From Mesonia oceanica (GTDB lineage: Bacteria > Bacteroidota > Bacteroidia > Flavobacteriales > Flavobacteriaceae), in the NCBI RefSeq assembly GCF_902499555.1, contig NZ_CABVMM010000001.1, positions 186,001 through 250,000 of the forward strand: 64,000 nucleotides of DNA, read 5' to 3'. A program made the translations under genes and the position numbers. The notes under the pieces were generated by a model. It saw only the letters and a list, made by a program, of their open reading frames with translations. It searched no databases and was not told the origin of the DNA. Of the stretch, positions 53,842-56,709 are shown one piece after another. Position 1 is the first letter of the stretch. Each line of letters opens with the position of its first letter.

Positions 53842-55632
53842 ATGAAAAACGCCATATCCCCACATCAATTTCATATTCCGGTGATGGGCATTGCTTACAC
53901 CATTGATACGCCGGTAAAAGTGGCGCATTTTGGGATAAACTCTTCCATTTCAATTATCGAAGATCACCTTATCGAAAAAATGCGCGCGTATTATTACAAA
54001 TTGAATAACGAGCCTTTTCTGCCCATAAGCAAAAAGGAACCCAATTATAGAGCTAAACGGATTACCGATTATCTGAATCTGATAAGTGAAGAAGTGAAAA
54101 AGAAAGTAGAAGGGGTGAAAACCGCTGCTTTTTCAAGTACTTCAGAAATCACCAAGTATTTTGAAATGCTGCCGGAAGTGTCTGAATTAAAACAGAAGTA
54201 CCTTAAATTTCTTCAGCTAACGGATCCTTCCGAAAAAGAGAGTCTGGAGTCTGAACTGCGAAATGAGGTAAAGCCCGGTGCGATTGAAGTCAATATCATG
54301 ACGAAAATCGATAGCGATCAAATCGATGACAACAAAGAAGTTATCGAAAATGGATCTGATGCTTTACAGGCTTTAAAAGGGTATGCAGAAAGCAATTTAG
54401 AGCATTCAACCCTGGTTTTTTCGGCTGGGATGAATCCAAGATTGTTCAATTATCTATCCTCTTTTAAAAGCTTTCATTCCGATAACAACGGTAACTTCAG
54501 CAAAGCCATTGCTATAAAAGTCAGCGATTACCGTTCGGCTTTAATTCAGGGAAAATACCTCGCCAAACGGGGAATCTGGGTGAGTGAATTCAGAATTGAA
54601 TCCGGCTTAAACTGTGGGGGTCACGCCTTTGCAACCGATGGTTATCTGCTGGGGCCAATACTGGAAGAATTTAAGCAGAACAAAGCCCAATTACACTCGG
54701 AATTATCGGCACTTTACCGAAGTGCTGTTGGTGAAGAAGCTGAAATTTCTGAATTACCCGAAATAAAGATTACCGTTCAGGGTGGGATAGGTACTTTTGA
54801 AGAAGATACCTTGCTAAAAGATTATTTTCAGGCTGATGCGACTGGTTGGGGATCGCCGTTTTTACTGTGTCCGGAAGTAACCAATGTCGATTCTGCAACC
54901 TTAGGGAAACTTCAACAATCAAAAGAAGAAGATATTGTTTTGAGCCACAGTTCGCCCTTGGGTGTTCGGTTTAACTACCTGAAGGGAGCTAGTGGAGAAG
55001 ACTTCCGAAGAAAAAATCTTTTACGAAATAAACCCGGTAGTTCGTGTCCCGAGAAATTATTAGAAGCGAATACCGAATTTACCGAAAAACCGATTTGTAC
55101 TGCTTCGCATAAATACCAAAAATTAAAACTGAAGCAAATTCAACATTCCGATTTATCGAGAGCTGAAAAGGCAAAGGAAGCCGATTTGTTGTTTGAGAAA
55201 GAGTGTTTGTGTACCGGTTTGTGCACTAGTGTCGCTAAAAACTACAACTTCACCTTTGTAAAGAAAATGGATTTTGTGACCGTTTGTCCCGGCCCTAATT
55301 TGGCCTATTTCTCGGGTAAATATTCGCTACAAGAATTGACCGATCACATCTATGGTCGCAAAAATGTGCTGAGTGGCTATCGCCCGCATATGTTTATTAA
55401 AGAGCTGCAGTTGTACATCGATTACTTAAAAGAATTGGCAGAGAGTACCGATTTTTCAAATAGACGGGAAGCAAAAAAGTTCACCCGATTTACACAAAAT
55501 CTGGAAGAAGGCATTGACTATTATAAGAATATGTTCTCTAAAAAGCTGATTAAAGAAAACCAGTTTTTAACCGATTTACATATTTGCGAAAACCGAATTT
55601 TAGAAATCACACAGCAAGCTGAAGTGGCTTAA
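53842..55632 (+). CDS. Unrecognised 596-aa protein with FMN TIM-barrel-like motifs
   Basis: A large soluble protein with no signal peptide. Several stretches line up in order with nitronate-monooxygenase/PfaD-type FMN barrels: ESGLNCGGHAFATDG (compare EGxEAGGH), ITVQGGIGTFEED and FQADATGWGSPFLLCPE (compare GAxGVQxGTRFLL.PE). It adds a helical N-terminal domain (~1-180) and a C-terminal Cys-rich region (SSCPEKLL, PICTASHKYQ, KECLCTGLCTS) not seen in those enzymes. No family name is known to me. The TIM-barrel call is an inference. Single gene. Confidence 0.75.
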   Translation: MKNAISPHQFHIPVMGIAYTIDTPVKVAHFGINSSISIIEDHLIEKMRAYYYKLNNEPFLPISKKEPNYRAKRITDYLNLISEEVKKKVEGVKTAAFSSTSEITKYFEMLPEVSELKQKYLKFLQLTDPSEKESLESELRNEVKPGAIEVNIMTKIDSDQIDDNKEVIENGSDALQALKGYAESNLEHSTLVFSAGMNPRLFNYLSSFKSFHSDNNGNFSKAIAIKVSDYRSALIQGKYLAKRGIWVSEFRIESGLNCGGHAFATDGYLLGPILEEFKQNKAQLHSELSALYRSAVGEEAEISELPEIKITVQGGIGTFEEDTLLKDYFQADATGWGSPFLLCPEVTNVDSATLGKLQQSKEEDIVLSHSSPLGVRFNYLKGASGEDFRRKNLLRNKPGSSCPEKLLEANTEFTEKPICTASHKYQKLKLKQIQHSDLSRAEKAKEADLLFEKECLCTGLCTSVAKNYNFTFVKKMDFVTVCPGPNLAYFSGKYSLQELTDHIYGRKNVLSGYRPHMFIKELQLYIDYLKELAESTDFSNRREAKKFTRFTQNLEEGIDYYKNMFSKKLIKENQFLTDLHICENRILEITQQAEVA

Positions 55633-55739: not shown

Positions 55740-55803
55740 GTCACTTATAGTGATTCTAGTACAGCGGTAGCGGAAATTAAATTGTATCGAGAAGTTATGA
55801 GTG
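55740..55803. repeat. Partial unit of the GIY-YIG-linked repeat, upstream copy
   Basis: GTCACTTATAGTGATTCTAG, then TACAGCGGTAGCGGAAATTAA and TTGTATCGAGAAGTTATG. This is the left half of the unit found downstream at 56588-56709; it is most like the fourth unit. The right half is missing. Confidence 0.85.
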
Positions 55804-55880
55804 AATGTTTTTCGTCATAATTCACTTTATTAACCTTTCTAGGAGTACTTGACCTGAGGATGTTCGTTTTAAAATAATAG

Positions 55881-56171
55881 ATGATGAAAATGTACTATGT
55901 TTATATATTACAATGCTCTGACAACACATATTATACAGGAATAACTTCTAAACTTGAAGAAAGGTTGTTTCAACATAATTCAGGTTTTTATAGAGATGGT
56001 TATACCTATAGGCGACGTCCTGTGGAACTTAAATATTATACGACATTTTCCAATTCTGGAAAGGCAATTGATTTTGAAAAGAAAATTAAAAAATGGTCGA
56101 AAGCTAAAAAGGAAGCACTCATTAATTCTGAATATGATCAACTTCCTAATTTAGCAAAGAAAAAATTTTAG
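55881..56171 (+). CDS. GIY-YIG single-domain nuclease
   Basis: A 96-residue GIY-YIG protein of the small COG2827 type: YYVYILQCSDNTYYTGIT holds the motif, Arg28 (LEERLFQHN) and Glu66 (IDFEKKIKKWSKAKK) are the expected catalytic residues. Intact, with no other domain. Family members are poorly characterised. The gene has a partial repeat unit upstream and four full units downstream, which suggests the repeat and nuclease belong together. ATG 55881 or 55884. Confidence 0.92.
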   Translation: MMKMYYVYILQCSDNTYYTGITSKLEERLFQHNSGFYRDGYTYRRRPVELKYYTTFSNSGKAIDFEKKIKKWSKAKKEALINSEYDQLPNLAKKKF

Positions 56172-56185
56172 GAATAATGCTTTAG

Positions 56186-56709
56186 CCACTTCAAGTGATT
56201 TTAGTGTAGCTAAAATTGTATCGATAAGCTCTGTGAGATATGTTCTCGATACGATTTACCTCCGTTTCACTTTGGTAAATCACTCGAACTGACTTTTTGA
56301 GTTTGGTTGTTGGTCACTTCGAGTGATTTTTGGGAGCGATAGCGACAAACAATTGTATCGAGAAGTTATTTTGAGAATAGTTCTCGATACAATTTACCTC
56401 CGTTTCACTTTGGTAAATCACTCGAACTGACTTTTTGGGTTTGTTTGTTGGTCACTTCGAGTGATTTTTGGGAGCGATAGCGACAAACAATTGTATCGAT
56501 AAGCTCTGTGAGATATGTTCTCGATACAATTTACCTCCGTTTCACTTTGGCAAATCACTAGAACTGACTTTTGGTGTTTGTTTGTTGGTCACTTCGAGTG
56601 ATTCTAGTACAGCGGTAGCGGAAATTAAGTTGTATCGAGAAGTTATGTTGGGAATAGTTCTCGATACAATTTACCTCCGTTTCACTTTGGTAAATCACTC
56701 GAAACCGAC
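56186..56709. repeat. Array of four nested-dyad repeat units (REP-like)
   Basis: Four contiguous units start at 56187, 56315, 56453 and 56590 (spacing 128, 138, 137). Each has an outer dyad GTCACTTCGAGTGATTT / AAATCACTCGAACTGAC (17 bp, one mismatch), an inner hairpin (unit 2: AATTGTATCGAGAA 56351-56364 with TTCTCGATACAATT 56381-56394) and a TTACC..GGTAA hairpin. Units 1/3 and 2/4 share loop types, while the AGCGATAGCG head links units 2/3 and the AGCGGTAGCG head links unit 4 to the upstream copy. No unique spacers, so not CRISPR. It ends where the next gene's stop begins. Confidence 0.93.

Follow-up and report, generated by a model that had tools for sequence, protein, structure and literature searches.

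A GIY-YIG nuclease gene beside an array of hairpin repeats

The window analysed here, a stretch of 64 kb, carries between positions 55740 and 56709 a short gene for a GIY-YIG protein and an array of hairpin repeats consisting of one partial and four contiguous full units (Table 1). Both had been reported in an earlier note on this DNA, and both proved to be real. The reading frame is intact and codes for 96 residues, with the GIY-YIG domain PF01541 recognised at E 4.7e-17. The array can be defined by the coordinates of its units and was also detected by Tandem Repeats Finder, which at its score limit gives two arrays for the whole window, this one with a period of 138 (56214-56703, score 744). 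Strict matches to the REP pattern described below are confined to this array within the window. The gene is not within the loop of one unit but has a decayed left REP on its upstream side and unit 1 downstream, and this arrangement, with four whole units following the gene, is less tidy than that in relatives. An ORF of 596 aa upstream of the array (53842-55632) had no Pfam match at E 0.001.

Table 1 Features of the repeat array and the GIY-YIG gene in the 64-kb window.
Feature	Position	Strand	Remark
Partial unit	55740-55794		
Upstream left REP, partly decayed: GTCACTTATAG	55740-55794	+	without recognised right REP partner
Single-domain GIY-YIG nuclease gene, 96 aa	55881-56171	+	intact ORF, PF01541
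Full unit 1	56185-56293		
Unit 1 left REP, shortened head	56185-56228	+	
Unit 1 right REP, GTCAGTTCGAGTG...TATCGAGAAC on the - strand, apical TTACC/GGTAA hairpin	56242-56293	-	strict REP pattern 56244-56293
Full unit 2	56313-56431		
Unit 2 left REP, NN/n'n' = CT/AG	56313-56365	+	strict REP pattern 56313-56363
Unit 2 right REP, GT/AC	56380-56431	-	strict REP pattern 56382-56431
Full unit 3	56451-56568		
Unit 3 left REP, TATCGATA variant	56451-56503	+	
Unit 3 right REP, TCTAG variant	56517-56568	-	
Full unit 4	56588-56709		
Unit 4 left REP, CT/AG	56588-56642	+	strict REP pattern 56588-56640
Unit 4 right REP, one base inserted close to tag	56657-56709	-	

The protein belongs to the GIY-YIG superfamily by its domain, by invariant alignment columns and by its fold. 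Residues Y8, Y18, G20, R28 and E66 do not vary among 28 aligned sequences, and we take these Tyr, Tyr/Gly, Arg and Glu positions to be the GIY-YIG catalytic residues. Among solved folds, the AlphaFold2 model (pLDDT 92.3) is closest to the UPF0213 structures 1zg2 and 1ywl, with Slx1 next. The corresponding UPF0213 proteins, BH0048 (1zg2) and EF2693 (1ywl), are the top matches by sequence as well as by fold and have been deposited as hypothetical proteins. The nearest named relatives, judged by this protein, are Flavobacteriaceae, and a search against NCBIfam gave no meaningful match. There are seven GIY-YIG places in the genome that contains the window, four of which are stand-alone genes, located at three sites. 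The other two of these sites are bordered, as judged by eye, by the palindromes CCTGCCTGCCGGCAGGCAGG and ATTCCTGC..GCAGGAAT.

Each unit as a pair of inverted REPs

The units had initially been described as nested dyads. The dyads as such are confirmed, with an outer one of 17 bp that is 94% complementary and an inner one that is perfect over 14 bp in unit 2, but the unit is better read as two inverted hairpin repeats (REPs) of about 50 nt, each with an apical hairpin of its own. When read in this way, the outer dyad is formed by the tagged ends of both REPs and the inner hairpin by their untagged ends; what had been seen as modular heads and a small hairpin corresponds to the apical portions of the REPs, which can be exchanged. 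The first full unit turned out to be devoid of the AGCGNTAGCG head.

The repeat of this array, REP-A, consists of a [T/C]GTCA tag and an imperfect hairpin and can be written as [T/C]GTCA-NN-TCGAGTG-(variable hairpin)-TGTATCGAGA-n'n', with NN complementary to n'n' and covarying with it. The left REP of a unit reads GTCA-CT-TCGAGTG-(head hairpin)-TGTATCGAGA-AG; the right REP is on the other strand, has GT and AC instead, and carries the TTACC/GGTAA apical hairpin. Two sister types are REP-B (GTCA-NN-TCGAG..TCGAGA-n'n') and REP-C (GTCA-NN-CTGAG..TCGAAG-n'n'). The base that precedes GTCA is T (283 cases) or C (198 cases) in 481 of 509 distinct REP-A.

In samples taken from loci mostly around GIY-YIG genes, NN can pair with n'n' in 210 of 226 distinct REP-A (with a maximum of 101 in 2000 shuffles), in 11 of 14 REP-B (shuffle maximum 6) and in 28 of 36 REP-C (shuffle maximum 10). 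For REP-A, the forms include GT/AC (94), CT/AG (88), GG/CC (10), CA/TG (7) and TG/CA (4). The two ends of a REP are hence maintained in a pairable state. Complementarity by itself does not distinguish folded DNA from other forms and could also reflect recognition of duplex palindromes or of RNA.

Orientation and spacing were analysed in the same kind of loci, mostly around GIY-YIG genes. Of 341 pairs of adjacent REP-A no more than 400 bp apart, 247 are inverted. The 128 facing pairs include 82 that combine GT with CT, nine of GT with GT and a single one of CT with CT. Their gap is at most 60 bp in 87 pairs and 200-400 bp in another 39, and 38 of these 39 enclose a GIY-YIG gene. As nearly all gene-sized gaps hold such a gene, the units with a short gap have the appearance of copies that lack it.

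When folded as single-stranded DNA, two whole units (of four) reach -25.5 kcal/mol (z -6.6) and -22.0 kcal/mol (z -4.8), and for neither was any of 200 shuffles as good. Single REPs of unit 4 fold weakly, with no clear advantage over shuffled sequences (left REP: z -0.5, 52 of 200 shuffles as good; right REP: z -1.05, 32 of 200).

REPs border related genes in many genomes

We analysed 82 related GIY-YIG genes, obtained from 80 loci of named genomes after identical copies and genes with both flanks shorter than 100 bp had been dropped. A REP-A or one of the sister types B and C occurs within 250 bp of 80 of these genes, with REP-A at 65 and solely types B or C at 15. The two genes without any of the three types in this range are from Flavobacterium hiemivividum (L272) and Niabella drilacis (L322). 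In relatives the gene itself often fills the interval from a forward to a reverse REP, and both orientations are found within 250 bp at 34 of the 82 genes. The gene neighbours vary, yet a matching REP persists. When the flanks are scanned in steps of 250 bp, REP-A frequency drops sharply with distance, from 108/154 in the window next to the gene to 28/151, 11/151, 3/149, 3/148 and, for the last one at 1.25-1.5 kb, 4/140. Throughout 299 genomes of the family, which overlap with the 80-locus set (e.g. L268/G162, L312/G195, L324/G279) so that the two sets are not independent, the true REP-A pattern had 1628 matches in 130 genomes and the same pattern written backwards a single match.

Orthologues of the gene from two other species (90% and 82% identity) also have units on both sides, the upstream unit of the G012 orthologue being much diverged and judged by eye. 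Judged from these comparisons, the association between gene and repeats is general in Flavobacteriaceae, specific and co-inherited. Because REPs border most related genes and their type matches the branch of the enzyme, it is suggested that the enzyme acts on its own repeats.

For further analysis the genes were assigned to classes. The split between classes I and II is based on identity (56%) together with protein length and was chosen after the flanks had been viewed. When all 4-mers that precede hairpins next to class I genes are ranked, GTCA is at the top in three of the four side/orientation sets and shares second place in the fourth. For class II it leads in a single set of the four (14/46), and for class III in none. 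By another scan, only 18 of 36 class III genes have any GTCA hairpin beside them. We also aligned flanks of 200 bp with each other (score of at least 16). By this measure, inverted and direct bracketing is found for 9 and 40 of 60 class I genes, 20 and 22 of 45 class II genes, and 8 and 19 of 31 class III genes. The controls, in which flanks of another class were used and which cover the inverted orientation only, gave 3/180, 0/135 and 0/93 for classes I-III. With 9 of 60 cases, the inverted bracket is weak for class I by flank alignment; left and right REPs there differ in their apical parts.

The GTCA tag does not occur throughout: the two alphaproteobacterial homologues examined, from Methylobacterium (L345) and Sphingomonas (L346), both have palindromes on either side which, as judged by eye, are devoid of it. 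The idea of a mobile vector was pursued in 72,556 plasmid and 50,697 phage records and was dropped, as no match with at least 60% identity was found in either set.

Repeat type follows the protein tree

The protein tree comprises 131 sequences, 13 of the 144 genes having been excluded because of stops or a length outside 80-130 aa. It requires 15 changes of repeat type compared to a mean of 64 upon shuffling, with none of 200 shuffles being as low; near relatives inflate such change counts, and 61 of the 126 inner branches are unresolved, there being 100 alignment columns. The 53 REP-A rows of the tree need three changes. None of the three REP types was found for 38 of the 131 proteins, mostly the more distant ones. 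Comparison between genomes thus shows a pairing of gene and repeat that persists at different loci, a match between repeat type and protein clade, and covariation at the hairpin ends. The earlier note had proposed to test for clustering by GIY-YIG presence and phylogeny, and its view of gene and repeats as a single RAYT/REP-like system with another nuclease family is strongly supported by these comparisons.

Repeats are not equally abundant in genomes that lack the gene. Of the 46 genomes that carry a class I gene, the close type of GIY-YIG relative, 45 have REP-A (all except G046), and the median is 12.5 copies. REP-A is also found in 27 of 42 genomes with the class II-like type alone (median 1), and in 58 of 211 genomes without a GIY-YIG match at E 1e-24 (median 0). 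The difference between class I and no-match genomes corresponds to a Mann-Whitney p of 2e-24, which is uncorrected for relatedness. Six genomes with a match of at least 56% but of the longer type (G059, G120, G131, G139, G195, G279) had been counted as class II; if they are moved to class I, REP-A occurs in 49 of 52 class I genomes (summed by hand).

There are 28 genomes among the 211 that have at least five REP-A copies. In a looser search, which covered 22 of these 28, some GIY-YIG match was found in 17 and none even at E 1e-3 in five. Several of the looser matches are stop-broken or fragments (G141, G176, G190, G217). The REP-A-rich genomes without the gene are the main result against strict gene dependence. 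Possible readings are gene loss with relic repeats, gaps in draft genomes, or another enzyme.

Within the genus, at E<=0.001, the genome that contains the window (G000) has 32 BLAST matches to the unit, the majority of which cover part of it, so that the repeat is dispersed; the numbers are 23 for G012 and 8 for G005, and all three genomes have a close orthologue. The other 13 genomes of the genus have between 0 and 6 matches each. The corresponding whole-unit DNA search in the 299 genomes, which scored at most two candidates per listed genome beyond the strongest matches, is not taken to indicate absence.

Presence and absence at one locus

In six of 16 genomes from the genus (G012, G001, G013, G003, G010, G008), a gene for an M28 peptidase is found at most 1.5 kb from the matched 3' part of a prolyl oligopeptidase gene; Pfam confirmation is from G012 alone, and G008 is counted irrespective of side. 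The interval between the two genes contains a unit, the GIY-YIG gene and another unit in G012, a decayed unit without the gene in G001, and no such unit in the other four, G003 having a different inverted repeat pair there (by eye). In G005, the same prolyl oligopeptidase is adjoined by gene and units, with the contig terminating beyond. In G000, an ORF of 168 aa occurs between the oligopeptidase and the gene with its units. This is a case of presence and absence at one place, short of proof of transposition. A clean empty site of a single element with target duplication was not encountered between G000 and G012 over 20 kb. The two genomes are collinear there with about 83%, and intergenic clusters of several repeat families differ at once. 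As several families differ together, an insertion junction is unreadable in this comparison.

Relation to known repeat-associated enzymes

A precedent for a repeat-linked GIY-YIG protein is reportedly Ssn, a site-specific single-stranded nuclease from Neisseria and relatives, said to have been described by Chenal et al. in Nature Communications in 2025. Ssn is said to be a small GIY-YIG protein with a target repeat that occurs in many genomic copies, and its homologues are said to recognise different sequences. The system in the window resembles Ssn, so described, in having a small GIY-YIG protein and a multi-copy repeat that is dispersed in the host genome and would be recognised by the protein. 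It may differ in that the gene is bracketed by its repeats, in that these form inverted pairs whose apical hairpins can be exchanged, and in that the repeat type tracks the protein tree across Flavobacteriaceae. In view of Ssn, the earlier claim of novelty for repeat-linked GIY-YIG proteins, made for Flavobacteriaceae, is too strong when generalised. Among the listed matches from a search of openly licensed papers, none deals with REP-bracketed GIY-YIG genes in Bacteroidota.

The arrangement is analogous to that of RAYT/REPtron systems, where tagged REPs of the matching type lie on either side of the enzyme gene. RAYT/REP/REPIN systems (PMC3733652, PMC3116915) likewise have a nuclease gene flanked by tagged palindromes, dispersed inverted REP pairs and a clade-specific repeat type. 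The RAYT is an HUH tyrosine transposase (IS200/IS605) and the tag is GTAG (PMC3733652), whereas the protein described here is GIY-YIG by domain and fold, not HUH, and the tag is [T/C]GTCA.

REPs tagged with CGTC or TGTC are known from Bacteroidetes and, as dRS3, from Neisseria, and the 2013 paper states that a dedicated transposase is apparently absent for CGTC-tagged REPs (PMC3733652). Like REP-A, they have an unpaired CGTC/TGTC tag next to a hairpin. They differ in that stems are 8-9 bp and almost all begin with complementary AT residues (PMC3733652), whereas REP-A has a variable NN that is mostly GT or CT and a large apical insertion. Hairpins of the GTCAT..ATC type occur beside some GIY-YIG genes of the same genus that are more distant (L082, L087, L098, L111). 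The pairing of gene and REP bears on which enzyme serves the CGTC-tagged REPs, with GIY-YIG proteins as candidates.

A REPtron-like element as the proposed explanation

We consider it probable that gene and repeats constitute a REPtron-like element in which a GIY-YIG nuclease, similar to UPF0213 proteins and Ssn, recognises the hairpins that its own REPs form in single-stranded DNA. Two facing REPs, usually of the CT/AG and GT/AC types, would bound either a short loop, giving a unit, or the nuclease gene. Recognition of the REPs by the nuclease is very likely on the comparative evidence, and the protein would bind a REP that is folded in single-stranded DNA, which may be the lagging-strand template or imported DNA. 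The nuclease would then nick at or near the GTCA tag, single-strand nicking being likely by kinship with Ssn as it has been reported. Mobility of the putative element is plausible; nicked or released REP pairs would be copied or re-inserted, which would disperse units without the gene and take the gene along as well, and the enzyme may in this way help to spread its own repeats. The covarying NN/n'n' bases may set specificity.

The same recognition could also serve a non-mobile function, with the nuclease limiting or steering uptake and recombination of REP-bearing single-stranded DNA, as is said of Ssn, and with repeats that spread passively. Such a role would fit the nuclease superfamily shared with Ssn, the dispersal of repeats in the genome and the partly vertical inheritance (L121, L128 and L139 have a common downstream gene, as judged by eye). 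We nevertheless regard it as rather unlikely, because the repeat brackets the gene at many different loci, tandem copies of gene plus repeat occur in L125 and L127, and a gene-less unit is found at the orthologous site in G001. All of this may be compatible with a role in uptake in addition to mobility.

The repeats might instead be RNA elements, such as terminators, attenuators or mRNA stabilisers, with the nuclease gene merely residing in repeat-rich intergenic DNA. The units in the window are indeed intergenic, and two whole units fold strongly, but the sharp enrichment beside one gene family, the repeat type that tracks the protein clade and the presence of repeats on both sides of the gene make this very improbable; the two matches obtained with Rfam are both far below the gathering score of their family and chance-like. 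We give equally little credence to a GIY-YIG gene that is a passenger among REPs moved by another enzyme, e.g. a RAYT/IS200 HUH transposase. RAYTs do serve the GTAG-tagged REPs, but CGTC units are reported to flank no RAYT/IS200 gene and to have few, fortuitous links to other transposases (PMC3733652). REP-A is also seen in genomes where no GIY-YIG relative was detected, but where REP-A has a recurrent neighbour in our data, this is the GIY-YIG gene.

A further step from the REPtron-like element would be that single-domain GIY-YIG proteins are the missing dedicated enzymes of the CGTC/TGTC-tagged REPs, that they represent a second kind of REPtron, which evolved independently and spreads hairpin repeats through a non-HUH nuclease acting on single strands, and that the covarying 2-bp element adjacent to the GTCA tag aids recognition; we propose this tentatively, as possible but somewhat doubtful. 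If true, the REPtron-like element would account for dispersed hairpin repeats in many Flavobacteriaceae genomes and would be a source of many natural nucleases with different specificity. The natural pairs of enzyme and target are many, the target can be read from the genome, and the covarying bases are directly testable.

Other GIY-YIG and repeat loci

Another GIY-YIG clade is found at a tRNA-Arg gene, both in the genome that contains the window (L047, 2262-2990, contig C6) and in G014 (L094, contig C1). There, two tandem GIY-YIG genes are followed by an intact tRNA-Arg, and in front of each of the two lie a fragment resembling the 5' part of a tRNA and a perfect palindrome of 20 bp. In L094 of G014, a GIY-YIG gene is present in three tandem copies. 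At L048 (6500-8500, contig C10 of the genome with the window), near-copies of a gene, of about 800 bp, occur in tandem, each preceded by a partial unit. A third GIY-YIG clade of the genus (L071, L091, L092) resides in repeat arrays, e.g. GGTGTCCGAGTGAT..ATTGTATCGAGGCCACC and GGTGGCTGAGTGAT..ATTGTATCGAAGCCACC, which are partly similar to REP-A. Intergenic mixtures of REP-A units with repeats of the types GGCTGAGTGATTGCGA..ATCGAAGCC and GTCATCC..GGATC occur at L044 (5040-5710) and L046 (1900-2600), and in the L044 region the mixed repeat families differ blockwise between two species.
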